This document shows positions 23,833 to 64,000 of a stretch of DNA of 64,000 nt, in pieces. The first letter of the stretch is position 1. Every line of letters starts with the position of its first letter. Source of the stretch: Rugalucina vietnamica (lineage: Eukaryota; Mollusca; Bivalvia; Lucinida; Lucinidae); the NCBI GenBank assembly GCA_964017185.1, contig OZ024882.1:38909988-38973987 (forward strand), read 5' to 3'. The position numbers and the translations under genes are program-made. The notes below the pieces were generated by a model. It was not told the DNA's origin. It did not search any database and saw nothing but the letters and a program-made list of their open reading frames with translations.

Positions 23833-26289
23833 ACAACAAAAAACTAACGTTATGGTGAGTATATGTAAAATTTCCAAATCGAACTTGTTTTATTGTGTGG
23901 TCGACATGAAGGCTTGTTGAGCTGTGGTCGACATATAGGCCTGTGTGGTTGTGGTCGACATGTAGGCCTGTGGAGTTGTGGTCGACATGTAGGCCTGTGG
24001 AGTTGTAACCGACGTGTAGACCTGTAGGGTTGTGGTCGACATGTAGGCCTGCGGAGCTGTAGTCGACATGAGGGCCTGTTGAGTTGTGGTCGACATGTAG
24101 GCCTGTCGAGTTGTAATCGACGTGTAGGCCTGTAGGGTTGTGGTCGACATGTAGGCCTGTGGAGTTGTAGTCGACATGTAGGCATGTGGAGTTGTGGTCG
24201 ACATGTAGACCTGTGGAGTTGTGGTCAACATGTAGGTCTGTGGGGTTGTGGTGGACATGTAGGCCTGTAGGGTTGTGGTGGACATGTAGGCCTGTGGAGT
24301 TGTGGTCGACATGTAGGCCTGTAGGGTTGTGGTCGACATCTAGGCCTGTAGGGTTGTGGTCAACGTCTAGGTATGTGGGGTTCAGGTTGACAAGGAGGTC
24401 TGTAGGGTTCAGGTCGTCATGTATATGTAGGTCTGTAGAGAGGTCTGTAGGGTTCAGGTCGACATGTAGGTCTGTATGATTGTCGTCGACATGTAGGCCT
24501 GAAGGGTCGTGGTCGACATATATGCCTGTAGGTTTGTGGTAGGTAGGGTTATGAACAACATGTAGTTCTGTGGGGTTGTGGTCGACATGTAGTTCTGTAG
24601 GGTTGTGGTCGACATGTAGGCCTATAGGGTCGTGGTCGACATGTAGGCCTGTGGGGTTGTGGTCGACATGTAGGCCTGTGGAGTTGTGGTCGACATATAG
24701 GCCTGTGGGGTTGTGGTCGACATGTAGGCCTGTGGAGTTGTGGTCGACATATAGGCCTGTGGAGTTGCGATCGACATGGAGCCTGTTGGGTTGTGGTCAA
24801 CATGTAGGCCTGTGGAGTTGTGGCCGCCATGTAGGTCTGTAGGGTTGTGGTCGACATGTAGGCCTGTGAAGTTGTGGTCGACATATAGGCCTGTGGAGTT
24901 GCGGTCGACATGGAGCCTGTTGGGTTGTGGTCAACATGTAGGCCTGTGGAGTTGTGGCCGCCATGTAGGTCTGTAGGGTTGTGGTCGACATGTAGGCCTG
25001 TGGAGTTGATCGACATGACGGCCTGTAGGGTTGTGGTCGACATGAAGGCTTGTTGAGTTGTGGTCGACATGTAGGCCAGTGTGGTTGTGGTAGGTATGTA
25101 GGTTTCAGCTCGACATGTAATATAGGTCTGTAGGGTTGTGGTCGCCATGTAGGAATGTAGGGTTGTGGTCGACATGTAGGTCTGTGGTCGACAGATATGC
25201 CTGTAGGGTTGCAGTCGACATGTAGGAATGTAGGGTTGCGGTTGACATGTAGGTCTGAAGGGTCGTGGTTGACATATATGCCTGTAGGTTTGTGGTCGAC
25301 ATGTAGGCCTGTAGGGTTGTGGTCGGCGTGTAGACCTGTAGGGTCGTGGTCGACATATATGCCTGTAGGGTTGTGGTTGACATGTCGGCCTGTAGGGTTG
25401 TGGTCGACATGTATGCCTGTGGAGCTGTGGTTGACGTATAGGCCTGTGGAGTTATGGTCGACATGTAGGCTTGTGAAATTGTTGTTGACATGTAGGCCTG
25501 TAGGGTTGTGGTCGATATGTATGCCTGTGCAGCTGTGGTCGACATGTGGGCCTCTGGAGTTGTGGTTGACATATAGGCATGTGGAGTTGTGGTCGACATG
25601 TAGGAATGTAGGGTTGTGGTCGACATGTAGGCATGTAGGGGTGTGGTCGACAAGTAAGTCTGTATGGTTGTGGTCGACATGTAGGAATGTAGGGTTGTGG
25701 TCGACATGTAGGCCCGTGGGGTTGTGGTCGACATGTAGGCCTGTGGAGTTGTGGTCGGCATGTAGGCCTGTGGTGCTGTGGCCGACATGTAGGTCTGCAG
25801 GGTTGTGGTCGACATGTAGGCCTGTGAGATTGTGGTCGACATGTAGGTCTGTGGAGTTGTGGTCGACATGTAGGCCTGTGGTCGACATGTAGGTCTGCAG
25901 GGTTGTGGTCGACATGTGGGCCTGTGGGATTGTGGTCGACATGTAGGCCTGTGGATATGTGGTCGACATGGAGGCCTGTGGAGTTGTGGTCGACATGTAT
26001 GTCTGTTTGGTTGTGGTCAACATGTAAGCCTGTGGAGTTGTGGTCGACATGAAGGCATGTAAGGTTGTGAACGACATGTAGGCCAGTGGAGTTGTGGTCG
26101 ACATGTAGGCCTGTAGGGTTGTGGTAGACATGTAGGCCTGCAGGGTTGTGGTCGACAAGTAGGCTTGTTGAGTTGTGGTCGACATGTACGCCTGTGGGGT
26201 TGTGGTCGACAAGTAGGCCTGTGGAGTTGTGGTCGACATGTAGACATGTAGAGTTGTAATAAACCTATAGGTATGTCGACATGTATGCC

Positions 26290-29030
26290 TGTGGAGTTGT
26301 AGTCGACATGTAGGCATGTTATGTTGCGGTCGACATGTAGACCTGTGGAGTTGTGGTCGACATGTTGGTCTGTAGGGTTGTGGTAGACATGTAGGCTTGT
26401 GGAGTTGTGGTCAAGATGTAGGCCTGTAGGGTTGTGGTCGACATGCAGGTCTGTGGGGTTGTGGTCGACATGTAAGCCTGTGGAGTTACGGTGTGGAGTT
26501 ACGGTCGACATGTAGGCCTGTGGGGTTGTGTTCGATATGTAGGCCTGTGGAGTTGTGGTCGACATATAGGTATGTAGTTTTGTGGTCGACATGTAGGTCT
26601 GTAGGGTTGCTGTTGACATGTAGGTCTGTAGGGTTGTGGTCGACATGTAGGCCTGTATGGTTGTTGTTGACATGTAGGCCTGTAGGGTTGTGGTCGACAT
26701 CTAGACCTGTAGGGTTGTGGTCGACATGTAGCCTTGTAGAGTTGTGGTCGATATGTAGGTCTATAGGGTTCAGGTCGACATGTAGGTATGTAGGGTTCTT
26801 GTCGACATGTAGGTCTGTAGTCGACATGTAGGTCTGTAGGGTTGTGGTCGACATGTAGGTCTGTGGTCGACATGTAGGTCAGTAGGGTTCAGGTCGACAA
26901 GTAGGTATGTAGGGTTCTTGTCGAGATGTAGGTCTGTAAGGGTGTTGTCGAAATGTAGATCTGTAGGGTTCAGGTCAACATGTAGGTCTGTAGGGTTCAG
27001 CTCGACATGTAGATCTGTAGGGTTGTGGTCGACTTGTAGGTTTGTAGGGTTGTGGTCGACATGTAGTCTGTAGGGTTCATGCCGACATGTAGGTGTGTAG
27101 GGTTCTGGTCGACATGTTGGTCTAGTGTCGACATATATGCTTGAAGGGTTGTGGTCGACATGTAGGCCTGTGGATTTGTGGTCGATATATACGCCTGAAT
27201 GATTGTGGTCGACATATGTGTATGTAGGGTTGTGGTCGACATGTAAGACTGTAGGGTTGTAGTCGACATGTAGGCCTGAAGGGTCGTGGTCGACATATAT
27301 GCCTGTAGGTTTGTGGTAGGCCTGTAATGTTGTGGTCGACATGTAGTTCTGTGGCGTTGTGGTCGACATGTAGTTCTGTAGGATTGTGGTCGACATGTAG
27401 GCCTGTGGGGTCGTGGTCGACGTATATGCTTGTAGGGATGTGGTTGACATGTAGGCCTGTAGGGTTGTGGTCGACATGTATGACTGTGGAGCTGTGGTCG
27501 ACATGTGTGGTCGACATGGAGCCTGTTGGGTTGTGGTTAATATGTAGGCCTATAGAGTTGTGGTCGCCATGTAGGTCTGAAGGGTTGTAATAGACATATA
27601 GGTATGTAGGGTTGTGGTCGACATGTAGGCCTGTGGAGTTGTAGTCGACACGTAGGCATGTTATGTTGTAATCGCCATGTAGACCTGTGGAGTTGTGATC
27701 GACATGTTGGTATGTAGGTTTGTGGTAGACATGTAGGCTTGTGGAGTTGTGGTCAAGATGTAGGCCTGTAGGGTTGTTGTCGATATGCAGGCCTGTGGGG
27801 TTGTGGTCGACATGTAGGCCTGTGGAGTTACGGTCGACATGTAGGCCTGTGGGGTTGTGTTCGATATGTAGGCCTGTGGAGTTGTGGTCGACATATAGGT
27901 ATGTAGTTTTGTGGTCGACATGTAGGTCTGTAGGGTTGCTGTTGACATGTAGGTCTGTAGGGTTCAGGTCGACATGTAGGTTTGTAGGGTTGTGGTCGAC
28001 ATGTAGGCCTGTATGGTTGTTGTTGACATGTAGGCCTGTAGGGTTGTAGTCGACATGTAGGCCTGTAGGGTTGTGGTCGACATGTAGGCCTGTAGAGTTG
28101 TGGTCGACATGTAGGTCTGTAGGGTTCAGGTCGACATGTAGGTATGTAGGGTTCTTGTCGACATGCAGGTCTGTAGGGCTGTGGTCGACATGTAGGTCTG
28201 TAGGGTTGTGGTCGACATGTAGGTCAGTAGGGTTCAGGTTGACATGGAGGTATGTAGGGTTCTTGTCGACATGTAGGTCTGTAAGAGTGTTGTCGAAATG
28301 TAGATCTGTAGGGTTCAGGTCAACATGTAGGTCTGTAGGGTTCAGCTCGACATGTAGATCTGTAGGGTTGTGGTCGACTTGTAGGTTTGTAGGGTTGTGG
28401 TCGACATGTAGGTCTGTAGGGTTCATGCCGACATGTAGGTATGTATGGTTCTGGTCGACATGTTGGTTTGTGGTCGACATATATGCCTGAAGGGTTGTGG
28501 TCGACATGTAGGACTGAAGGGTTGTGGTCGACATGTAGGCCTGTGGAGTTGTGGTCGATATATACGCCTGAATGATTGTGGTCGACATATGTGTATGTAG
28601 GGTTGTGGTCGACATGTAAGACTGTAGGGTTGTAGTCGACATGTAGGCCTGAAGGGTCGTGGTCGACATATATGCCTGTAGGTTTGTGGTGGACATATAG
28701 GCCTGTAGGGTTGTGGTCGACATGTAGTTCTGTGGCGTTGTGGTCGACATGTAGTTCTGTAGGATTGTGGTCGACATGTAGGCCTGTAGGGTCGTGGTCG
28801 ACGTATATGCTTGTAGGGATGTGGTTGACATGTAGGCCTGTAGGGTTGTGGTCGACATGTATGACTGTGGAGCTGTGGTCGACATGTAGGCCTGTGGGGT
28901 TGTGGTCGACATGTAAGCCTGTGGAGTTGTGGTCGACATATAGGCCTGTTGAGTTGTTGTCGACATGGAGCCTGTTGGGTTGTGGTTAATATGTAGGCCT
29001 ATAGAGTTGTGGTCGCCATGTAGGTCTGTA
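26290..29030. repeat. Higher-order duplication inside the minisatellite
   Basis: The order of variant units in about 26,290-27,580 is repeated in about 27,640-29,030. Landmark variants shared at an offset of 1.33-1.45 kb include 'gcatgttatgttg' (26,312/27,657), 'ggtcaagatgtagg' (26,409/27,750), 'gttcgatatgtagg' (26,530/27,859) and 'ggttaatatgtaggcctata' (27,534/28,986). Confidence 0.75.
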
Positions 29031-30383
29031 GGGTTGTGGTCGACATGCAGGCCTGTGGAGTTGATCGACATGACGGCCTGTATGGTTGTGGTCGACATGA
29101 AGGCTTGTTGAGTTGTGTTCGACATGTAGGCCAGTGTGGTTGTGGTCGACATGTAGGCCTGTGGAGTTGTGGTCGACATTTAGGCCTGTGGAGTTGTAAC
29201 CGACGTGTAGGCCTGTAGGGTTGTGGTCGACATGTAGGCCTGTTGAGTTGTGGTCGACATGTAGGCCTGTGTGGTTGTGGTCGACATGTAGGCCTGTAAT
29301 TTTGGTCGACATGTAGTCCTGTCGAGTTGTAATCGACGTGTAGGCCTGTAGGGTTGTGGTCGACATGTAGGCCTGTGGAGTTGTAGTCGACATGTAGGCA
29401 TGTGGATTTGTAATCGACATGTAGACCTGTGGAGTTGTGGTCAACATGTAGGTCTGTGGGGTTGTGGTCGACATGTAGGCCTGTGGAATTGTGGTGGACA
29501 TGTAGGCCTGTAGGGTTGTGGTGGACATGTAGGAATGTGGAGTTGTGGTCGACATGTAGGCCTGTAGGGTTGTGGTCGACATGTAGGCCTGTGGGGTTGT
29601 AGTCGACATGTATGCCTGTGGAGTTGTGGTCGACATGTAGGCCTGTTGGGTTGTGTTCGATATGTAGGCCACCGGAGTCGACATGTAGGTCTGTAGGGTT
29701 GTTGTTGATATGTAGGTCTGTAGGGTTCAGGTCGACATGTAGGTTTAAAGATTTGTGGTCGACATGTTGGCCTGTAGGGTTGTTGTTGACATGCAGGCCT
29801 GTAGGGTTGTGGTCGACATGTAGGCCTCTAGAGTTGTGGTCGACATGTAGGTCTGTAGGGTTGTGGTCGACATGTTGGTTTATATGAGGTGTCGTCGACA
29901 TGCAGATCTATAGGGTTCAGGTCGACATGTAAGTATGTAGGGTTCAGCTCGACATTTAGGTTTGTAGGATTGTGGTCGACATGTAGGCGTTTAGGGTTGT
30001 GGTCGTCATGTAGGTATGTAGGGTTCAGCTCGACATTTAGGTCTGTAGGGTTGTGGTCGACATGTAGGTTTGTAAGGTTGTGGTCGACATGTAAGTCTGT
30101 AGGTTTCAGGTCGACATGTAGGTCTATAGGGGTGTGGTCGACATGTTGGTCTGTGGTCGACATATATGCCTGAAGGGTTGTGGTCGACATGTAGGACTGT
30201 AGGGTTGTGGTCGACATGTAGGCCTGTGGATTTGTGGTTGACATAAAGGTCGACATGTGGTCGATATATAGGTATGTAGGGTTGTGGTCGACATGTAGAA
30301 CTGTAGGGTTATAGTCGGCATGTATGCCTGAAGGGTCGTGGTCGACATATATGCCTGAAGGTTTGTGGTCGACATGTAGGCCT

Positions 30384-30977
30384 ACAGTCCTACATGTCGA
30401 CCACAACCGTTCAGGCATGTATTTTGACCACATACCAACATGTCTACCACACCTTTATATAGACCTTCATGTCGACCTGAACCCTACAGACCTACATGTC
30501 AACCTGAACTCTACAGACCTAATGTCGACCACAACCATACAAACATACATGTCGAGCTGAACCCTACATACCTACATGCCGACGACAATCCTACAGGCCT
30601 ACATGTCGACCATAACCCTACAGGCCTACATGTCGACCACAACCCTACAGGCCTACATGTCAACAACTACCCTACAAGCCTATATGTCGACCACAACCTT
30701 ACAAACCTGTCGACCACAACTTCACAGGCCTACATATCGAACACAGACCAACGGGTCTACATGTCGACCACAACTCCACATGCCTACATGTCGTCCAGAA
30801 ACCCACAGGCCTACATGTCGACCACAACACTACATTCCTACATGTCGACCACAACTCCACAAGCCTACATGTCGACCACAGCCCTACATACCTACATGTC
30901 GACCACAACTCCAAAGGCCTACATGTCGACCGCAACCCGACAGACCTACATGTCGACCACAACTCCACAGGCCTACA
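30384..30977 (-). repeat. Inverted block within the minisatellite
   Basis: For about 590 bp (some 22 units) the array runs in the opposite orientation (plus strand reads ctacatgtcgaccacaac). Forward orientation stops at an AGGCCT (30,378-30,383) and resumes at an ACATGT (30,975-30,980), so both switches lie at or beside a palindromic hexamer of the unit. Confidence 0.9.
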
Positions 30978-31985
30978 TGTGGAGTTGTGGTCGACATGTA
31001 AGTCTGTAGGATTGTGGTCGACATGTAGGCATGTGGAGTTGTGGTCGACATGTAGGCATGTGAAGTTGTGGTCGACATGTAGGCCCGTTAGTCTGTGTTC
31101 GATATGTAGGCCTGTGGAGTTGTGGTCGACATGTAGGTATGTAGGGCTGTGGTCGACATGTAGGCTTGTGGAGTTGTGGTCGACATGTAGGAATGTAGTG
31201 TTGTGGTCGACATATAGGCCTGTGGGTTTCTGGTCGACATGTAGGCCTGTGGAGTTGTGGTCGACATGTAGGCCCGTTGGTCTGTGTTCGATATGTAGGC
31301 CTGTGAAGTTGTGGTCGACAGGTTTGTAAGGTTGTGGTCGACATATAGGCCTGTATGGTTGTTGTTGACATGTAGGCCTGTGGTCGACATGTAGGCCTGT
31401 AGGGTTGTGGTTGACATGTAGGTCTGTAGGGTTGTGGTCGACAGGTAGGCCTGTAGGGCATGTAGGCCTTTAGGGTTGTGGTCGACATGCAGGCCTGTAG
31501 GGTTGTTGTTGACATGTAGGCCTGTAGGGTTGTTGTTGACATGTAGGCCTGTAGGGTTGTGGTCGACATGCAGGCCTGTAGGGTTGTTGTTGACATGTAG
31601 GCCTGTAGGGTTGTTGTCGACATGCAGACCTGTAGGGTTGTTGTTGACATGTAGGCCTGTAGGGTTGTTGTTCACATGTAGGCCTGTAGGATTGTGGTCG
31701 ACATGTAGGCCTGTAGGGTTGTTGTTGACATGTAGGCCTGTAGGGTTGTTGTCGACATGCAGGCCTGTAGGGTTGTTGTTGACATGTAGGTCTGTAGGGT
31801 TGTTGTTGACATGTAGGCCTGTGGAGTTGTGGTCGACATGCAGGCCTGTAGGGTTGTGGTCGACATGTAGGCCTGTAGGGTTGTGGTCGACATGTAGGTC
31901 TGTAGGGTTGTTGTTGACATGTAGGTCTGTGGAGTTGTGGTCGACATGTAGGCCTGCAGGGCTGTGATCGATAAGTCTGTTTGTT

Positions 31986-43334: not shown

Positions 43335-44296
43335 TTAATGGAGAAGCTTATTATTATTGTAGTTTGGAGAATCGAACTTTGCCGGCTGTAGATAATCCGA
43401 GAGAGATACCCTTGTCTCAATAGCTCCACCACGGCTACAATGACTGCAATAAATATGTGCAAACGTTTGTCTGAACTTGATGCTCATTGAGCAGTATAAT
43501 ATGAAATTAACACTGTTATTTACTAGAGCAACAATATCCATGATATCACCCAGTGGAATGTACACGCTCTCAAAGAATCCGTTCACGCATGCGCTGCATA
43601 CAATCAAAATCCCTTGGGGGAATTCGGTAACGAGGAACAAAACAATGACTGCTAGAAGCATTTTCGTCGTTCTTGAATGCTCCGTGAGTCTAAAACAATT
43701 AGTTCCACTGATTTGTAAAACTTTACGTCGTTGTCGGATCTTTACGTGTATGTTGTAGATTAAAAGACTTCCAAATACTGACATTAAGAGACATGGCACG
43801 AGTTTGGCGATCACGGCGTACAGCCAAACGTTCACTAGAACCATGGTTTCAGTGCCATCACGACCCAGTTTTAGATCTTTCAACACATACGCCGTGCTAT
43901 TATCATGTGTCGTTGTCTCTTGGAGTTCATTACTCATATAATTGGGAATAAGAATCACAGTTGAAGATATGTATACGAACAAAATAATAAGTTTCGTTTG
44001 AAACATTCTTCGTTTTCGAAACAGCGTTGTCCTTGTCGGCTTTCGTATGTGTAGATATCTTACAACGGCAAGTAGAACACACATCCATATGGAGATAGTG
44101 TGAGTTGTAGAGGTTAGATTGATATGAAATATCATGAATACCATCCAGCCATGGCTGTTCCGGTAACTTATCTTATCATCCGAGCAGTAAAAGTGGATTG
44201 CAAATGGCACGTAAGATAACATAGTGAAGATGTCTGAGACAGCCAGCCATGTAAGAATTTGGTTCACCGGGGTTTCCATATGTCTCCTCGTTAGAA
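43335..44296 (-). CDS. Last exon of a rhodopsin-class peptide GPCR (FMRFamide/myosuppressin/sex-peptide receptor type)
   Basis: This exon encodes about 320 residues, TM2 to the C-terminal tail, of a seven-helix receptor that would sit in the plasma membrane and bind a neuropeptide. TM2 contains TPVNQILTWLAVSDIFTM. The end of TM3 reads AVVRYLHIRKP, where the usual DRY is VRY. TM6 contains FLVTEFPQGI and TM7 NNSVNFILYC in place of NPxxY. These variants are typical of the dmsr/SPR-like group. The stop is at 43,335. I start the exon at 44,296 and not at the upstream ATG (44,375), because the minus strand has a strong acceptor (a T-rich stretch ending ttttcag) just before the codons for LTRRHM; the intron would be phase 1. 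TM1 and the N-terminus must be in an upstream exon, which I could not find up to 50 kb. Reading frame and motifs are intact, so the gene may be functional. Confidence 0.85.
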
Positions 44297-44757
44297 CTGA
44301 AAAATAATGAAAACAATGTGAGCTGAAATATATAATCACGATGCATAAATAAATAACACATACATGTCTAGCCATGTATTTCCTTTGTTTTACGTCTTCG
44401 GTTATTATTTATCTCAGGATAGCTGAACGACATCACCAGAAGACAGAGCTGAGTCGACACACTAGTGGCATTTACAAGATACCTGGTGGTATGAAGTATG
44501 AAGTTTTGTCTGTAGATGGGATATAAGTACGAGCGTATACTACTCGCTAGCGTTAGAGACACTTTTGTTGGGGGTAAGATTTATGATAATTTTCTTTATT
44601 ATTATAAAATATTCTACTATTACAAAATACTATTACGAAATAAAATAACGAACTATTTTCGATTGTTTTTTGACAGTATTCCGGAAGTAGAAAACAAAAA
44701 GAAAGCCTAGCATGCTTTAAACGCCAGAGCAGCGCGCGTTTGCTGCAGATCATCTGC
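44297..44757. other. Putative intron of the receptor gene
   Basis: It begins at the splice acceptor of the exon above. I see no TM1-coding exon in it; the minus-strand ORFs here lack a hydrophobic helix followed by the expected junction. Confidence 0.45.
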
Positions 44758-47866: not shown

Positions 47867-48482
47867 GTATATCTGTAAAACGACTATAGTCATCGTCGGC
47901 GGCAATGGCAGTAAAACGACTGTAGTCGTCGGCGGCAATGAGCAGTAAAACGACTGTAGTCGTCGGCGGCAATGAGCAGTAAAACGACTATAGTCGTCGT
48001 CGGCGGCAATGGCAGTAAAACGACTATAGTCGTCGTCGGCGGCAATGAGCAGTAAAACGACTATAGTCGTCGTCGGCGGCAATGGCAGTAAAACGACTAT
48101 AGTCGTCGTCGGCGGCAATGGCAGTAAAACGACTATAGTCGTCGTCGGCGGCAATGAGCAGTAAAACGACTATAGTCGTCGTCGGCGGCAATGAGCAGTA
48201 AAACGACTATAGTCGTCGTCGGCGGCAATGAGCAGTAAAACGACTATAGTCGTCGTCGGCGGCAATGAGCAGTAAAACGACTATAGTCGTCGTCGGCGGC
48301 AATGGCAGTAAAACGACTATAGTCGGCGGCGGCAATGAGCAGTAAAACGACTATAGTCGTCGTCGGCGGCAATGAGCAGTAAAACGACTATAGTCGTCGT
48401 CGGCGGCAATGAGCAGTAAAACGACTATAGTCGTCGTCGGCGGCAATGAGCAGTAAAACGACTGCAGTTGTCGGTGGCAGTA
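47867..48482. repeat. ~35-bp GC-rich minisatellite with a hairpin in each unit
   Basis: About 17 copies of a 33-37-bp unit made of 'cggcggcaatg(ag)cagtaa' plus 'aacgactatagtcgtcgt'. Each unit holds the palindrome ACGACTATAGTCGT. Units differ mainly by the 'ag' insertion and by one or two GTC triplets. Copies near 47,920 and 47,950 have the tgtagtc variant, and the last unit is degenerate. The ORF in it is a periodicity artefact. Confidence 0.95.
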
Positions 48483-57700: not shown

Positions 57701-58335
57701 CAGTAATCATATGATCAGTCATAAGCTTTGCCTATATGCATAAGGAAATCTCTTATTTTCTCATGGCCCCAATGGGCTTGAGCCCATATTCCCACATGGC
57801 CACCCTTTGCAGAACTGCCGATCAATGCAGTAACACAGTTAGTTTGGACAGCTTCTCCATTGTTGATGTTGTTGGGTTGAGTGTAATTCCTATACTGAAG
57901 TAGAGTATTCTACTTGGGGCCTCACAAAAAGTTCTAATAGACTGATATTGACTTTAATGGGGGTGGGGTTGCATATTAACCTTTGCAGAAATATCTCTAC
58001 CTAAGGTTAAACAACAGACTAAACCAAACAAAAACCAAATAGAAGGAGATGGGTTCACTGATGCTGAAGAAAAACTCATTTACAAATTTTGACCTTACTA
58101 TGCACCTAATGACCTTTAAATCGTGGCCTTACATGGCATAAAGTAGCACATTGCAATACTTCTTAATCATTTTAGCATATTTTAATGTCTTGACATCATT
58201 TGATAGTTTTTATATTATCAGAAATTTAGCACTGGTTTTACTTTTATTTTCTTTAGAAATTTGCACTTACATGACCTTTAACCTTGCAAGGGCATATGCT
58301 TTAAGCTCTTTTCAGTTATAATGTAAATGTCACAC
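54731..58335 (+). repeat. Copy B of the ~4-kb tandem duplication
   Basis: Colinear with copy A (see landmarks there). It is interrupted by an insertion at about 56,975-57,575 and truncated or diverged in places. The LINE at its right end begins just beyond the homologous 'ttataatgtaaatgt' shared with 54,067-54,081. Confidence 0.75.
56975..57575. mobile_element. ~600-bp insertion dense in (A/T)ACCGGG/ACCGTG motifs
   Basis: Copy A has only about 45 bp at this place (53,296-53,341). The insert is GC-richer than its surroundings and contains more than 25 loosely spaced 'accggg', 'aaccgt' or 'taccagg'-type words. It ends with a direct repeat of 'ccggggcttaagggt' (57,535-57,565). Two overlapping ~115-codon ORFs on the minus strand are by-products. 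No terminal inverted repeats were found. Confidence 0.55.
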
Positions 58336-58436
58336 TAATTTACGTTAGAAAACAAGATGGTCGACTTTTTAAATCAGTTATAATGTAAATGTCACGCTAA
58401 TTTACGTTAGAAAACAAGATGGTCGACTTTTTAAAT
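58313..58436 (+). repeat. 62-bp tandem duplication at the LINE 5' boundary
   Basis: 58,313-58,374 and 58,375-58,436 differ at about one position. The first ~22 bp correspond to flanking duplication-copy DNA (cf. 54,065-54,083), the rest to sequence on the LINE side. Confidence 0.8.
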
Positions 58437-58611
58437 CTGTGAACGTTTTTTTTGTGCTAAAATCCAAAATTTAACCGGTTAATGTGACTTCGTGATATGA
58501 AAAAGACATTGTGATATTCCTTTTGAAAATCGGAATAAACTGGTACGTATTTTAACGGAATCGGATTGTGAAATTTGCTATAATCGCTAATTGAAAATTG
58601 ACTGTCTGAAA

Positions 58612-59594
58612 ATGCCGGGCGAAGCGAGTTTGCTTGACCTTACGTCGACGGAGCGTGTAAAAACAATAGCCAGGCTGATTCTAAAGGCGGCTGTGGAGTG
58701 TTTTGGGGAGAGAATCATGATTTGAATTGTTCAGAGTCGTTATTGGGAGAAAAGCAGACCAACAATAGAGCAGAAATGTCAGCCGCTGTCATAGCGTTGT
58801 CTCAAGCTATAGATCTAAAGATTGAAAGACTGACGATAGTTTCTGATAGTCGCTACCTTAAAGAAGGAATATCGAATTGGATTAAAACTTGGAAGTTAAA
58901 CGGGTGGAAAACAGATAAAAAGACAGGTATCCTAAATAAGGACCTTTGGCTGTTGTTAGACGGTCTACAGAAGAAACTGGAGGTGACCTGGAGGTGGGTT
59001 GAGGGTCATAGTACATCGGAGGGTAACAACCGAGCTGACACACTGGCGGGAGTTGGAGTAGGAGAGCCTTCCTGTTTTTGGCAACAGCGTGCGCTAGACA
59101 TCGTGTCTGTCCCCATACTGTTCCCTGAGCCTTCTATCCAGACAAAAGTGGAAGAAGTCCATGTAACAAAGGTATGCAGCTTTTGTAATAAAGATGATTC
59201 GTCTGAGAAAACTATCCTGTGCACAGACTGTAGGAGTGTATGTCATTATTCCTGTACTCGTCTACCAAGATACCAGCTGTATGCACTCGCTAATAGACAT
59301 AGGAAATTTTCATGTGAACAATGTCTGTCGGTTCCAGCGTCTTTTGCAAGCGATATTGAGGATGAGATCTTGGTCGGAAATTCAACTCTGAAGGATTTGC
59401 CCCATGTTGATGAACACAATGGAACTTCAACTTGTCCCAATCAGCTATCGGATGTCCTATCTCAGCACGCGAAAAGTATGCAGAATATGTTAGATTCATT
59501 TAAATCAAGTACTGTGCATTCTTTGGAGCTTTCCCTTGTTGGCGCTATAGAAAAACTCAGTAATATGCAGTCTGCTCAGTCCAATAGTGAATAA
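58612..59594 (+). pseudogene. LINE ORF1, N-terminal part: RNase H1-like domain plus PHD finger
   Basis: Counting residues from the GTG at 58,698, the frame carries E26 (NNRAEM), D50 (SDSRY), H104 and D114 (GHS...NNRAD). The first catalytic Asp lies upstream in the same frame at 58,647-58,649 (YVDGACKNN). All carboxylates and the His of an RNase H1 active site are therefore present, with the W..W..NGW segment typical of cellular RNase H1. RNase H would cut the RNA of RNA-DNA hybrids. A PHD finger follows: C160-x2-C163-x11-C175-x2-C178-x4-H183-x2-C186-x19-C206-x2-C209. The plausible ATG (58,612, MPGEASLL) is in another frame; one missing T near 58,638-58,641 would explain this. A TGA at 58,635 closes the RNase H frame upstream. 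The frame ends at a TAA (59,592-59,594) but continues in frame beyond it. Confidence 0.85.
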
Positions 59595-60074
59595 CAAACT
59601 CAAATTAGTCAGTTACTTCGAGAGAAGGATAATTTGATGAGAGAAAAAGACAATCTGTTAAAGCAGCGTAGAAACGGTGATGAAAATCAGCACGCAGCGA
59701 TGAAGGCAGAAATTCAGTCCCTCACGCGAAAACTAGAAACATGCAACCAAGAAAAAGAAAGCTTGCAAGAACGGTTACACAACTCGGTAACGGAGTATGA
59801 AATTCAAAAATCTAAGTTTGAACTGGATGCAACAGTCCTACGTCAGAAGCTTGATGTCCTGTCAAGGAGGAATGAAATGCTGAGCAATGAAATGGCTAGA
59901 TTGAAGAAAATTACAACAATGAAAAACGATGATGTGGTGGAGCTTGAGAAGAATAATCGGGACCTTAAACGTAAAATTGACCAGCTGGAGCTGGATATTT
60001 TGTCCTGGAAGTCGCATGCATCACGAGCGACGACTCATTACTTGTGGGGGCAACAGAAAGTTCGCCAGTTGTAG
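59595..60074 (+). pseudogene. LINE ORF1, middle part: coiled coil
   Basis: Same frame as the part above, separated only by the TAA at 59,592. About 150 residues rich in Glu, Lys, Gln, Asn and Leu with heptad character (ISQLLREKDNLMREKDNLL; later RRNEMLSNEMARLKK; ELEKNNRDLKRKIDQLELDI). It would be expected to oligomerise ORF1p, as coiled coils do in other LINEs. The frame closes at 60,072. Beyond it the sequence continues in other frames through a Ser/Thr-rich stretch up to 60,247, where I cannot tell which frame is ancestral. Confidence 0.75.
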
Positions 60075-60247
60075 TGACCACGATGAAAACAACCAAACAG
60101 AACGGTCATACAGCTCTGCGGCGTCTTCGTGGTTGAACGTTACACCATTCGGCGCGACGTCGACGTCACAACATGAACGTGTCTCGGGGACGGAGTCAGC
60201 AACGTCAAATTTAGCGGCACGGCAGTCGCCTCTATCGAGTACGAGAC

Positions 60248-60751
60248 GTGCGGCTACGGGACAACAACGACAATGTGTCCAAGTTTTTGCTACATCTATC
60301 CTGTAACGATATAAAGACTCTCTCAGCTACGGAGCATGCTACGGCTTATTGTGATCTCGCGAAAATAATCCAGGAAAAGTACCCTAGCGCGCAGGTGATT
60401 ATATCCCTTGGGCTGCCTTGTAATGACCCTAAGATTTACAATAAGATAGAAATTGCGAATGCCATGATTAAGGATCGTTTGTATGGGAAACCGGGTATCA
60501 AACTCTGTGACAATAGTAACCTTTCATACAGAGGTAGACCTGCTTATGGAATGTTGGAGGAAGACGGTGTTTATATTTCTAGACGGGGTGTCTACGCGTT
60601 GAATAACAATTTACGGTCCTGTGTCTACAGCAACGGCGGTGAATCGGACTCTAGTAGCGTTCGGTCGAAGGGAGGTAACTACAGGAGATTTGGCGGAAGG
60701 AGATCAACCGGTTATCATGCGGGTTTCGGCAATAATCGTTCTCGGCGTTAA
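60248..60751 (+). pseudogene. LINE ORF1, C-terminal part: SGNH-hydrolase-like domain with basic tail
   Basis: Residues 13-22 (FLLHLSCNDI) match the Asn block of SGNH/GDSL-type domains. Residues 50-60 (VIISLGLPCND) fit the following strand. Residues 87-114 (CDNSNLSYRGRP...EEDGVYISRRG) are the C-terminal block. The family's catalytic D-x-x-H reads D106-G-V-Y109 here, so the His is replaced by Tyr, which one C-to-T change would explain. The Ser/Gly blocks should lie upstream in the broken 60,000-60,250 stretch. The tail (about 135-167) is rich in Gly, Arg and Ser (GGNYRRFGGRR), probably nucleic-acid binding. Esterase-like domains are known in CR1-type ORF1 proteins. The first codon is GTG and is not a true start. 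Confidence 0.8.
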
Positions 60752-60768
60752 ATAGTGAAACATTGACG

Positions 60769-62187
60769 ATGAGAAAAACTTCTATAAATTTAGCATACTG
60801 GAATATTAACTGTCTAAAATCTAAATTGTTCGATAATTCAAAGGATACTGTGTTTTTAAAGGAAATTTCATGTTTTGATATTGTCTGCTTATCTGAAATT
60901 AAGTGCAATATGGATAATGTAAGTTTTGATGGTTTTCGATCTCATGTTTTGCTAAGAAAGCAGGCAAGAAAGGGTCATGTTCACGGGGGCTTAGCCATTT
61001 TAATTAAGAATGAGATAAGGCAAGGAGTTAGGTTTTTGCAAACCACGTCATCGGAATACCAATGGTTTCTTCTGAAGAAAGAATTTTTTGGCTTTGCTAA
61101 TGATATTTATGTTTGCTGTGTTTATTTTTCTCCTAGGAATTCCACATTTAATGCACATTGTGCAAATGATAATGATTTGTTTGAACAAATTAACGTTGAT
61201 ATGTCACAGCATAGCAAACATGGCAAAATTCTTATTTGTGGCGATTTGAATGCGAGAACAGGCCAGAATGAGCCTGATTTTATTCTAAATGATGATTCTA
61301 CATATATTCCGCTGTCCGAAAATTATATACAGGATACTAATTTACAATGCCGTAATAGCCAAGACAAAGTCATTGACAAAAGAGGAAGGGATCTTTTGGA
61401 TTTCTGTGTGGAAAGCCAAATGCGCATTCTCAATGGCCGATCGTTTGGTGACATGCAAGGCATGTATACATCGTATAATTATAACGGTAATAGTGTTGTT
61501 GATTACATGATCGCGTCTGAAAGTTTAATATCACAGGTTCTATATTTCAATGTTAGTCTTAATAAGCCAAGATTGTCCGATCATTCACAAATAGGCTGTA
61601 AAATTTTAGCTAATTTCTCGATGAGAGATGAATCAGTCCCTCTTTTGCCTTTTCCTGTCAAATATAAATGGAGTGAGGCTTCGTCGGGACGTTTTAAAGA
61701 TGCTTTATGTTCCTGTTCGATTAAACAGAAAATTTTGGATTTAGAAAACTTAGATGCCAATTCCTCAACAGATACTTTAATAGGTAAATTGGAAAATATT
61801 ATTATTGCAACTGCTGATATTTCGCTGCGCAAAAAGTGTAAGAAAAAGTCGAAGAAACGTCATACTCCGAAAAAGTGGTACGATTATGAGCTTTATAATA
61901 TGCGAAGAAAGCTTGATCAGAAGGGATTTTTGTATGCTAAATACCCATGTGATCCATTTGTCCGTGGCTCTTACTATAAATTTCGAAAATTGTATGTTAA
62001 GCTTTGTAAACGGAAACGTAAGGAATACAAGGGTCAAATTGTTGAAAAATTAGAACAGCTTCATGAGAATGATCCTAAAGCTTACTGGAAACTTTTAGAA
62101 GATTTAAAAAATGAAGATGTAACTAATTCAGAACCACAGATTTCACCTGAGGAATGGGTAGACCATTTCTCTAATCTAAATACTTAA
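60769..62187 (+). pseudogene. LINE ORF2, endonuclease part (APE type)
   Basis: ORF2 starts 17 bases after the ORF1 stop. The APE-like endonuclease nicks target DNA for target-primed reverse transcription. Counted from 60,763: N14/N16 (AYWNINC), E45 (CLSEIK), the GGLAILIKN strand near 75-83, Y121..P124, G160-D161-L162-N163 (ICGDLNAR), N224-G225, D247 (SVVDYMI) and D273-H274 (RLSDHS). The catalytic set looks complete. After the domain a Lys-rich linker (near 370-385, KKCKKKSKKRHTPKKW) leads towards the reverse transcriptase. A TAA at 62,185 interrupts the frame, which continues unchanged after it. Confidence 0.9.
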
Positions 62188-63138
62188 AATGACAAGTTCA
62201 AAGCTAGGGTTGATCAAATTTCTGATATACTGGTTCATGAGGAGAAGTTAAAATCATTTTCACATCTAGATTTTCACATTTCTCCACAAGAACTGCGTGT
62301 GGCGGTTGATTCTCTTAAAAATAACAAAGCGGTAGGTTTTGATAGTATATCAAATGACATGCTTAAATGTGGATTTTCGCAACTAAAAGGTTGTTTATTG
62401 AAAATTTTTAACTCTATACTTACTAATGGATCATATCCTTCTAGTTGGAAGAAAGCATACATTTCGCCTATTCATAAAAGCGGAACATTGGATAACCCTA
62501 ATAACTATAGAGGGATTTCAATTCTTTCTTGTGCCGCTAAGTTATTCAATACTATTCTTACAAATCGTATGGATACTTTCTTAAAAGACAACGCCTTGAT
62601 CAATCCAGTTCAAATAGGCTTTACTAAGAAAGCTCGCACTGCTGATCACATGTTTGTATTAAGAACTCTTATTGAAAAGTACACGAAAGATAAAGGTGGT
62701 AAATTATTTGCTTGCTTCATAGATTTTCGCAAAGCTTTTGATACGGTTATTCATGAAATCTTATTATTTAAGTTGCTTAGAATTGGAATCGCTGGAAACT
62801 TTTATAATGTCATCAAGGACATGTACGTAGGCAATCGTCTAAATGTGAAAATGCACAACGGTTTCACGCAATCGTTTTTGTCTAATATTGGAGTCAGGCA
62901 AGGTGACACACTAAGTCCTGATTTGTTCAAAATCTTTATAAATGATCTACCTGATATATTTGATGAAAGCTGTTTTGGGGTTGACATTGGTACATATCAT
63001 TTGAATTGTTTACTTTATGCCGATGATGTCATCTTATTATCTAAAAACGAAGAAGGTTTGCATAATTGTTTAACAAAGCTTGAAACTTATTGTGCTGATT
63101 GGTGTCTGGATGTAAATTTTGACAAGACAAAAGTCTAA
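62188..63138 (+). pseudogene. LINE ORF2, reverse transcriptase part
   Basis: Same frame as the endonuclease. It copies the element RNA at the nicked site. Visible reverse-transcriptase blocks: NNKAVGFDSISNDML, the SSWKKAYISPIHKSG and NNYRGISIL blocks, FACFIDFRKAFDTV with the first catalytic Asp, GVRQGDTLSPDLFKIFINDL, and the YADD box at 63,016-63,027 in LLYADDVILLS. The domain ends with CLDVNFDKTKV, where a TAA (63,136-63,138) falls inside the conserved KTKxxVF block; the frame then continues. Apart from this stop the domain is intact, implying recent loss of function. Confidence 0.9.
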
Positions 63139-64000
63139 GTGTTTGATAAAACAGGTAAATTAAACAAGAATGAATTTAAATTTAATGGGGAAACGTTAGA
63201 AAATGTGAGACAATATAAGTATTTAGGAGTTACCTTCTGCATTTCTGGGTCATTTTCGGTTGCTTCATCAGAGCTTTATAAGAAAGCACTCAAAGGTATA
63301 TTCAAACTGAAAAGTATCTTTGGTTCTATGTGTCCAAAGTCTTCGGTTGCTTTTCATATATTTGACCACACTATAAAGCCAATTTTAACCTATGGTTCCG
63401 AGATATGGGCATCGATGAATAAATCTGTACGTTCTGGCGATATTATTGATAACCTTTACCAGAATTTGCATGGTGAAAAGTTACATACTAAATTTTGTAA
63501 ATATGTATTGGGTGTTCATTCCAAAGCATCTAATATAGCTTGTGTTGGTGAACTCGGTCGGTTTCCAATTTATATTGATATTTGTAATGATATCTTGAAG
63601 TACTACTGCTACGCTTCACATAAGCCAAATGACTCTTTAATTGGTCAAGCTTTGCTAACAAGTAAAGCATTATATCAGTCTGGCGTTAAATCGTGGTTTG
63701 GAGGTGTAGATACTATCCTTAAAGAATTAGATTTAAATGAAACGAATTGTAGTCACGCAAAGTGGTCTTTGATTTGTAGGTATAAAGATTTGTGGAGTTT
63801 AAAATTAGAAAATGAAGCACTGGTTAAAAAGGGAAAATTGAGAACATTTTATACTTTTAAGTCAACATTTCAAAAAGAAATTTATTTAGATACTTTAATG
63901 AACCGGATTCATCAGAAGTCTCTAACAAAATTAAGAATCAGCGCGCACAAATTAGAAATAGAGAATGGAAGATATAGCAGGAAATCAGTAGGGGACAGAG
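63139..64000 (+). pseudogene. LINE ORF2, C-terminal part, cut by the window edge
   Basis: Continues in frame without a stop to base 64,000. It starts with the thumb-type block QYKYLGVTF and continues with AFHIFDHTIKPILTYGSEIW, then KLHTKFCKYVLGVHSKAS and ACVGELGRFPIYIDI, which are conserved after the reverse transcriptase in several animal LINE families. I see no second RNase H here before the edge. In most RNase H-bearing LINEs it would follow the reverse transcriptase, so the unseen part matters. Confidence 0.85.

Follow-up and report, generated by a model that had tools for sequence, protein, structure and literature searches.

The 64,000-nucleotide stretch of the genome of the lucinid bivalve Rugalucina vietnamica analysed here (contig OZ024882.1, positions 38,909,988 to 38,973,987; hereafter the window) ends in a dead copy of a long interspersed nuclear element (LINE) of the apurinic/apyrimidinic endonuclease (APE) type. 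With fair confidence we read it as an element whose first open reading frame (ORF1) ran from an RNase H1-type domain through a PHD finger, a coiled-coil-like segment and an SGNH domain to a basic R/G-rich tail, whose ORF2 was without RNase H, and whose ORF1 protein (ORF1p) would have cleaved the template RNA. We also lean, if only slightly, towards a wider proposal, namely that a whole cellular RNase H1, made up of hybrid binding domain (HBD) and catalytic domain, was acquired by the ORF1 of a single LINE group, where later shuffling gave at least three layouts (HBD-RNase H-coiled coil-SGNH, RNase H-PHD-coiled coil-SGNH and HBD-PHD-SGNH), with the coat protein of the ribonucleoprotein (RNP), and not the polymerase protein, clearing or at least recognising the RNA:cDNA hybrid.

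The RNase H1-type domain and PHD finger of ORF1

All parts of the element described here lie on the plus strand of the window. The RNase H1-type domain spans positions 58641 to 59051 and matched Pfam RNase_H (PF00075) with an E value of 1.4e-35 and 123 bits; the nearest protein of solved structure was human RNase H1 (E ~1e-29), followed by E. coli-type RNase HI chains (~3e-22). A PHD finger of the C4HC3 kind follows at 59175 to 59324 (PF00628, E 1.2e-05, 25.7 bits with the cut-off at 24) and is read in the same stop-free frame (58638-59591, 318 amino acids), 40 amino acids separating the two domains. Both had been named in an initial annotation made from the sequence alone, which suggested profile searches of this kind, and both were recovered. 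The same holds for the catalytic residues that it listed, Asp at 58647, Glu at 58773, Asp at 58845, His at 59007 and Asp at 59037, and its numbering of four of them as E26, D50, H104 and D114 is correct when counted from the in-frame codon at 58698.

These five residues (D-E-D-H-D), as well as all eight zinc ligands in the PHD finger, were invariant in an eight-row alignment, A1. A loose motif scan, anchored on the Glu motif and counted by distinct place, found all five residues kept at 28 of the 31 distinct places giving a row, the other three (two on contig C12, plus L048) being broken or covered in part. As the scan was anchored on Glu, copies without that motif yield no row, and L007/L016/L050, L019/L026 and L043 bear RNase H pieces yet gave none. 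The window family thus carries the D-E-D-H-D domain that characterises RNase H1; the N-terminal HBD of RNase H1 is absent from it, RNase H adjoining the start Met and no upstream HBD row being found at 25 loci.

The domain moves with a multi-copy LINE family

The host genome (1.09 Gb, 47 contigs) was searched with the pieces of the element, and loci were fetched under L-numbers, L009 being the window locus. Some were fetched repeatedly (L001/L009, L002/L011/L022, L003/L012/L024, L004/L013/L023, L005/L014/L025, L006/L015/L027/L030 and others). The searches scored 125 of 144 candidates for the RNase H-PHD protein, 126 of 16,923 for the reverse transcriptase (RT), 150 of 412 for Pfam RNase H and 150 of 174 for SGNH, so that an absent row is weak evidence throughout. 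The RNase H-PHD DNA gave 14 matches, the window included, and the corresponding protein at least 96 rows.

In the better copies L011, L012, L013 and L014, ORF1 frames of 783 to 799 amino acids start with MPGDV, and the RNase H motif is reached no later than residue 15. In other subfamilies, mostly 43-47% identical, the motif lies even nearer the start codon, as in L037-L042, six near-identical copies starting MDDF[VI]SVFVDGA, and across copies RNase H starts no more than about 16 amino acids from the start Met. A separate ORF ahead of ORF1 was ruled out, RNase H being in the same frame as ORF1. Four copies on four contigs, L012-L015, are 96.5-99.5% identical over the aligned pieces; their starts agree to a few bases, approximately 210 bp upstream of the ATG, their flanks differ, and their 3' ends consist of one or more ATCTT units. 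Similarly, among L037-L042 and L046 the similarity (98.7-99.7%) sets in 198-216 bp upstream of the ATG, L037 and L046 sharing a separate stretch further upstream at 92%. Candidate target-site duplications were 5-8 bp, near chance length. No terminal repeat appeared in alignments of L011-L015 with the window copy, long terminal repeats not having been searched for otherwise. An APE endonuclease and an RT in one ORF2 (L011, L012, L019, L051, L053) and dispersed copies with a common 3' end (L012-L015) mark the family as a LINE. RNase H moves with this element and is part of a multi-copy LINE family; the possibility raised in the initial annotation, that it had been inserted by chance beside a single copy, fails on the many copies that carry the fusion.

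RNase H in ORF1 is under purifying selection. Between L034 and L035 the ratio of nonsynonymous to synonymous change (dN/dS) in RNase H was 0.043, from 6 changes at 361 nonsynonymous sites and 27 at 89 synonymous sites, compared with 0.101 for the linker and PHD finger and 0.375 beyond residue 250. For L011 and L012, in whose RNase H the synonymous sites are saturated, the proportion of nonsynonymous differences was 0.039 in RNase H, 0.037 in the linker, 0.048 in the PHD finger, 0.084 in the RT and 0.097 in the endonuclease. Within ORF1, RNase H changes most slowly, together with the linker and PHD finger next to it.

ORF2 lacks an RNase H domain

The ORF2 frames of L011 and L012 are 1212 and 1155 amino acids long. 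Pfam RNase_H was not found in any of the six ORF2 frames scanned (L011, L012, L019, L051, L052 and L053, that of L052 being cut by the end of the fetched stretch), while endonuclease and RT were; the expectation that RNase H is absent after the RT thus held in these frames. Genome-wide, RNase H rows of a second class, described below, were never within 4 kb after any of the 126 RT rows (0 of 84, among the matches listed). The one ORF1-type RNase H row that did lie within 4 kb after an RT row has an HBD of its own, 309 bp upstream, and an RT of its own, 4152 bp downstream. A relocation of RNase H within ORF2 was considered and rejected.

Sister ORF1 layouts and the origin of the domain

Sister ORF1s link the domain to RNase H1 more fully. 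At C10:33236085-33238134 an HBD (PF01693, E 1e-13) and RNase H (E 1.6e-36) stand in one frame, together with a charged stretch that looks helical by eye, and full-length human RNase H1 (6vrd_A) aligns over amino acids 3-263 with this frame at E 2.6e-44. There were 51 HBD rows in the genome. Layouts were paired by position and strand, the frame being read through at the fetched loci, from 75 of the 96 RNase H-PHD rows (the other 21 were second or short pieces), the 51 HBD rows and the 126 RT rows; some loci counted as RNase H only, such as C4:27257701, have a PHD finger in a dropped row. A same-strand RT row followed 2.5-7.5 kb downstream at 21 of 25 RNase H-PHD loci, 8 of 36 HBD-RNase H loci and 5 of 7 HBD-PHD loci. 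These last seven combine HBD and PHD without an RNase H row, and in four of them the HBD-to-PHD spacing (393-465 bp) could not accommodate an RNase H domain. Three loci, C15:10882824-10885106, C6:65804648-65806885 and C1:8814994-8817078, were seen to have HBD, PHD and SGNH without an RNase H row in ORF1s of 738-790 amino acids.

SGNH rows lay downstream in all three layouts, in frames as long as those in which the RNase H or HBD rows stand (976 amino acids at C10:33238692, 790 at C15:10884600 and 801 at C1:45376575 are examples). The SGNH count took 112 of 118 rows, six second pieces being dropped. Frames of at least 600 amino acids held 65 of these rows, and upstream of them were found RNase H and PHD in 21, HBD and RNase H in 17, HBD and PHD in 5, RNase H only in 1, HBD only in 1, and none of these in 20. 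RNase H is thus widespread in ORF1s of the group but, contrary to one possibility that the initial annotation had wished to see checked, not universal, SGNH ORF1s without detected RNase H being present. Such relatives suggest that the module was gained or lost more than once.

The scored Pfam rows (best 150 of 412) fall into two classes. Complete or nearly complete ORF1-type domains, matched by eye to rows of the RNase H-PHD protein search, scored 97.9-137.5 bits in 59 rows, with seven further partial rows at such loci at 62.7-89.9 bits. The second class (84 of 150) scored 64.6-74.1 bits and included frames of up to 1398 amino acids; judged by frame length only, these are probably ORF2s of other LINEs. 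In an unrooted tree of 30 RNase H rows, with few references and with copy numbers that include loci fetched repeatedly, the window family and its sisters formed one clade (98/97). The earlier suggestion that an RNase H1-type gene had been captured is supported as to RNase H1 character by sister ORF1s, which carry the RNase H1 N-terminal HBD; a single capture is not settled by this small tree. Outside the animal, neither viral nor prokaryote contigs gave relatives; alignment A1, used as a profile, found 12 viral loci in which the RNase H piece alone matched, the other pieces having no match at E 0.01 there. A tblastn search of plasmids returned 739 records with RNase H matches and is uninformative on origin; of five listed, two were annotated rnhA.

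The PHD finger, coiled-coil segment and SGNH domain

In all six other ORF1s scanned the PHD finger falls under the Pfam cut-off (17.3-23.8 bits), so that for its name we rely on the pattern of its ligands and on the score of the window copy. An AlphaFold model of RNase H-PHD built without an alignment had a pLDDT of 36 and was not used; it contained one long helix at amino acids 267-314. The coiled-coil-like segment (59595-60071) was judged from sub-cut-off Pfam matches, mostly to coiled-coil families, and from that low-confidence helix in the piece before it. The SGNH domain of the window copy is present as its second half (60248-60748, with block V as DGVY and the R/G-rich tail). Foldseek placed PAF-acetylhydrolase (PAF-AH) and sialate O-acetylesterase at the top for this half (best E 1.3e-03, probability 1.00, TM ~0.4), with nothing at E 0.001 or less from a query model of pLDDT 56.6. 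A family profile, A3, built from four other copies, matched the ORF1 esterase of ZfL2-1 (4c1b) at E 0.001 over positions 9-169 of 187 and PAF-acetylhydrolase at E 0.0009; Pfam GDSL models stayed below cut-off on the domain (best E 0.0099). L011 and L012 have GTSN in block I and DGVH in block V, and L052 has GTSN and DGLH, so that the better copies show, with a coiled-coil-like segment, the SGNH domain, catalytic Ser and Asp-x-x-His of an esterase (type IV) ORF1; the window copy is without block I and without the block V His. The coiled coil and SGNH domain that the initial annotation had placed after the PHD finger are thus both there, the former by weak Pfam matches and the latter as a half. 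L034 (C4:35323749) and L052 (C3:7418202) have ORF1 frames of approximately 1300 amino acids, and the SGNH domain of L052 is followed by a very long repeat tail rich in R, G and Y, which is possibly RNA-binding.

A possible role in template-RNA removal

How LINEs that lack RNase H shed their template RNA is a question that leads to host RNase H2; such LINEs, ZfL2-2 included, rely on this host enzyme, and RNase H-coding retrotransposons are independent of it, with RNase H1 rescuing partly (PMC6068448). Template-RNA removal would be the likeliest role for the RNase H of ORF1p. In the pathway that we propose, a host RNase H1 gene was taken up into ORF1, and ORF1p, multimerised by its coiled coil, would coat the element RNA and so carry RNase H to the target site in excess. 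The enzyme would spare single-stranded RNA and cut the RNA once first-strand cDNA had formed an RNA:DNA hybrid, which would free the cDNA for second-strand synthesis and relieve the element of any need for host RNase H2. Through its PHD finger the RNP would probably be tethered to chromatin; the SGNH domain may retain a role at membranes or lipids, as has been proposed for the esterases of other LINE ORF1s. An RNase H1 in the RNP protein would be a natural experiment, in that this step may come from ORF1p, in trans to the polymerase; ORF1p, usually regarded as a coat or chaperone, would appear from its sequence to have gained a hybrid-specific enzyme.

Several observations weigh against this picture. 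The tree contains a weak split (83/80) with the window family on one side and human RNase H1 and the HBD-linked domains on the other, and one common capture is accordingly not shown by it. The 20 long SGNH frames of 65 without detected HBD, RNase H or PHD include eight with a downstream RT row; some may be 5'-truncated or decayed copies, and at one of them, C9:44950079, the RT points to a subfamily in which RNase H occurs at other places. Module-less frames recur, however, at 656 amino acids in three places and at 751 in two, so that the group may be able to do without the RNase H module. HBD-PHD ORF1s, at seven loci, retain the hybrid binding domain without a detected nuclease, which suggests that hybrid recognition by itself may matter. 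No RT row accompanies 28 of the 36 HBD-RNase H loci, a shortfall attributable to the RT list, which holds 126 of 16,923 candidates.

Of the alternatives, one in which the RNase H1 parts mainly recognise RNA:DNA hybrids, whether R-loops or target-primed hybrids, and guide the RNP or resolve target R-loops, with cleavage secondary, draws on these HBD-PHD ORF1s, where no nuclease row was found and four of seven spacings leave no room for one. We consider it unlikely, because 28 of 31 places retain all five catalytic residues and because RNase H, with the linker and PHD finger, changes more slowly than the rest of ORF1, unlike a mere binding module. ORF1p is an abundant RNP protein in other LINEs, and the RNase H might act in the cytoplasm or in defence, trimming alarming or mispriming hybrids or degrading the copied RNA of competitors; nothing direct favours this, and as LINE reverse transcription is target-primed in the nucleus, few cytoplasmic hybrids are expected, which makes the idea improbable.

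A descent of the ORF1 domain from the ORF2 RNase H of other LINEs (I/R1-type), and not from RNase H1, would fit the large second class of Pfam rows, probably such ORF2s by their frame length, and the weak split that leaves the window family unjoined to RNase H1. It is nevertheless very improbable in our view, given that the bit scores of the two classes do not overlap for domains of full or nearly full length, that the best solved match was human RNase H1 and that an HBD precedes RNase H in sister ORF1s. The window copy taken by itself, broken and with its ATG out of the RNase H frame, could have been taken for a single LINE with a retrocopy of host RNase H1 next to it or read along with it. 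We give this chance association practically no credence, and the copies already refute it: in many of them the fusion is read in a single frame that has a start codon, element ends are common to four contigs, and a module row lay upstream of 37 of 126 RT rows compared with none after the RT places had been shifted by +50, -50 or +200 kb.

Relation to known ORF1 and RNase H proteins

RNase H is known in ORF2 of I, R1, Tad1 and some plant L1 LINEs. That domain has the same fold and serves the same retrotransposon step, but it sits after the RT, whereas here an RNase H1-like domain stands at the start of ORF1 and the tested ORF2 frames are without RNase H. Eukaryotic RNase H1 shares the catalytic domain and, with sister ORF1s, also the N-terminal HBD in the same order; the transposon-borne form differs in being fused to a PHD finger, a coiled-coil-like segment and SGNH. 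The type IV SGNH-esterase ORF1s of ZfL2-1, CR1 and RTEX likewise have a coiled coil followed by SGNH, and 4c1b among them was matched by the family profile, but the accessible text of PMC3905857, which mentions RNaseH in general terms as a domain lost and gained, describes no ORF1 RNase H in them; here RNase H and/or HBD, and PHD, precede the coiled coil. The survey of Jockey-superfamily ORF1s by Metcalfe and Casane (2014; PMC4120745) reports, in its available part, PHD and esterase types, the esterase in two vertebrate subgroups only. Its CR1/L2 PHD ORF1s (types IC, IIB, IIC, III and others) resemble the present ones in having a PHD finger, often N-terminal, and in modules shuffled among lineages; its main text, as far as available, has no word starting with RNase, ribonuclease or RNH. 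No LINE with RNase H in ORF1, and hence no prior family of the same architecture such as the initial annotation had allowed for, was found in the part of the open PubMed Central text that could be searched; Repbase and most subscription literature lie outside this scope, and priority is unproven. The group shows host-gene capture and ORF1 domain shuffling on a large scale within one genome.

The window copy and its decay

The LINE copy occupies 58402 to 64000, its start being set by alignment with copies L011-L015, which begins at 1402-1411 of L009, equal to window 58402-58411. Its 3' end lies outside the window, homology with L011 continuing, in window-equivalent coordinates, to approximately 64268 and, past an insert, over 64501-64662. 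Overlapping the 5' end are two copies of a 62-bp unit (58312-58437; Tandem Repeats Finder, 98% matches). The motif AAGATGG occurs approximately 17 bases past the 5' end in the window subfamily (at 1264 in L022-L025), in the window within the 62-bp duplicate; in the 19 other loci, scanned over their first 1700 bases, its exact form was absent. We presume it to resemble the YY1-like site that human L1 has at its start.

The initial annotation gave ORF1 as 58612-60751. Its module order is present, but over several frames: the ATG at the position of the ORF1 start (58612-58614; MPGDV... in better copies) is out of the RNase H frame, an in-frame TAA at 59592-59594 marks decay, and the frames shift near 60072-60248. 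Relative to L011, some 225 bp covering linker and SGNH block I are deleted at 60218-60260 (3218/3260 in L009 against 3598/3864 in L011), and with them block I has gone. The ORF1 stop is at 60749-60751. ORF2 follows directly on the same strand, as had been noted from the outset, with an APE-type endonuclease at 60763-62184 (ATG at 60769; PF14529, E 7.5e-11; PF03372, E 1.2e-09), the RT at 62188-63135 (PF00078, E 3e-35) and a C-terminal part without an RNase H row at 63139-63999, the frame of which runs to window-equivalent 64239. ORF2 is interrupted by stops at 62185 and 63136. With its frames broken and part of SGNH deleted, this copy is dead.

Other features of the window

An 8-kb minisatellite at 23896-31971 has a 27-bp unit, TGTGGTCGACATGTAGGCCTGTAGGGT, with ~77% matches; a part near 30464-30980 is in reverse orientation, and the array holds long spurious ORFs, mostly on the minus strand. 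A 37-bp unit, GTAAAACGACTATAGTCGTCGTCGGCGGCAATGAGCA, is repeated 16 times at 47875-48463 (96% matches). On the minus strand, 43335-44375 encodes an ORF of 346 amino acids, which by eye only we take to resemble an invertebrate seven-helix neuropeptide receptor.

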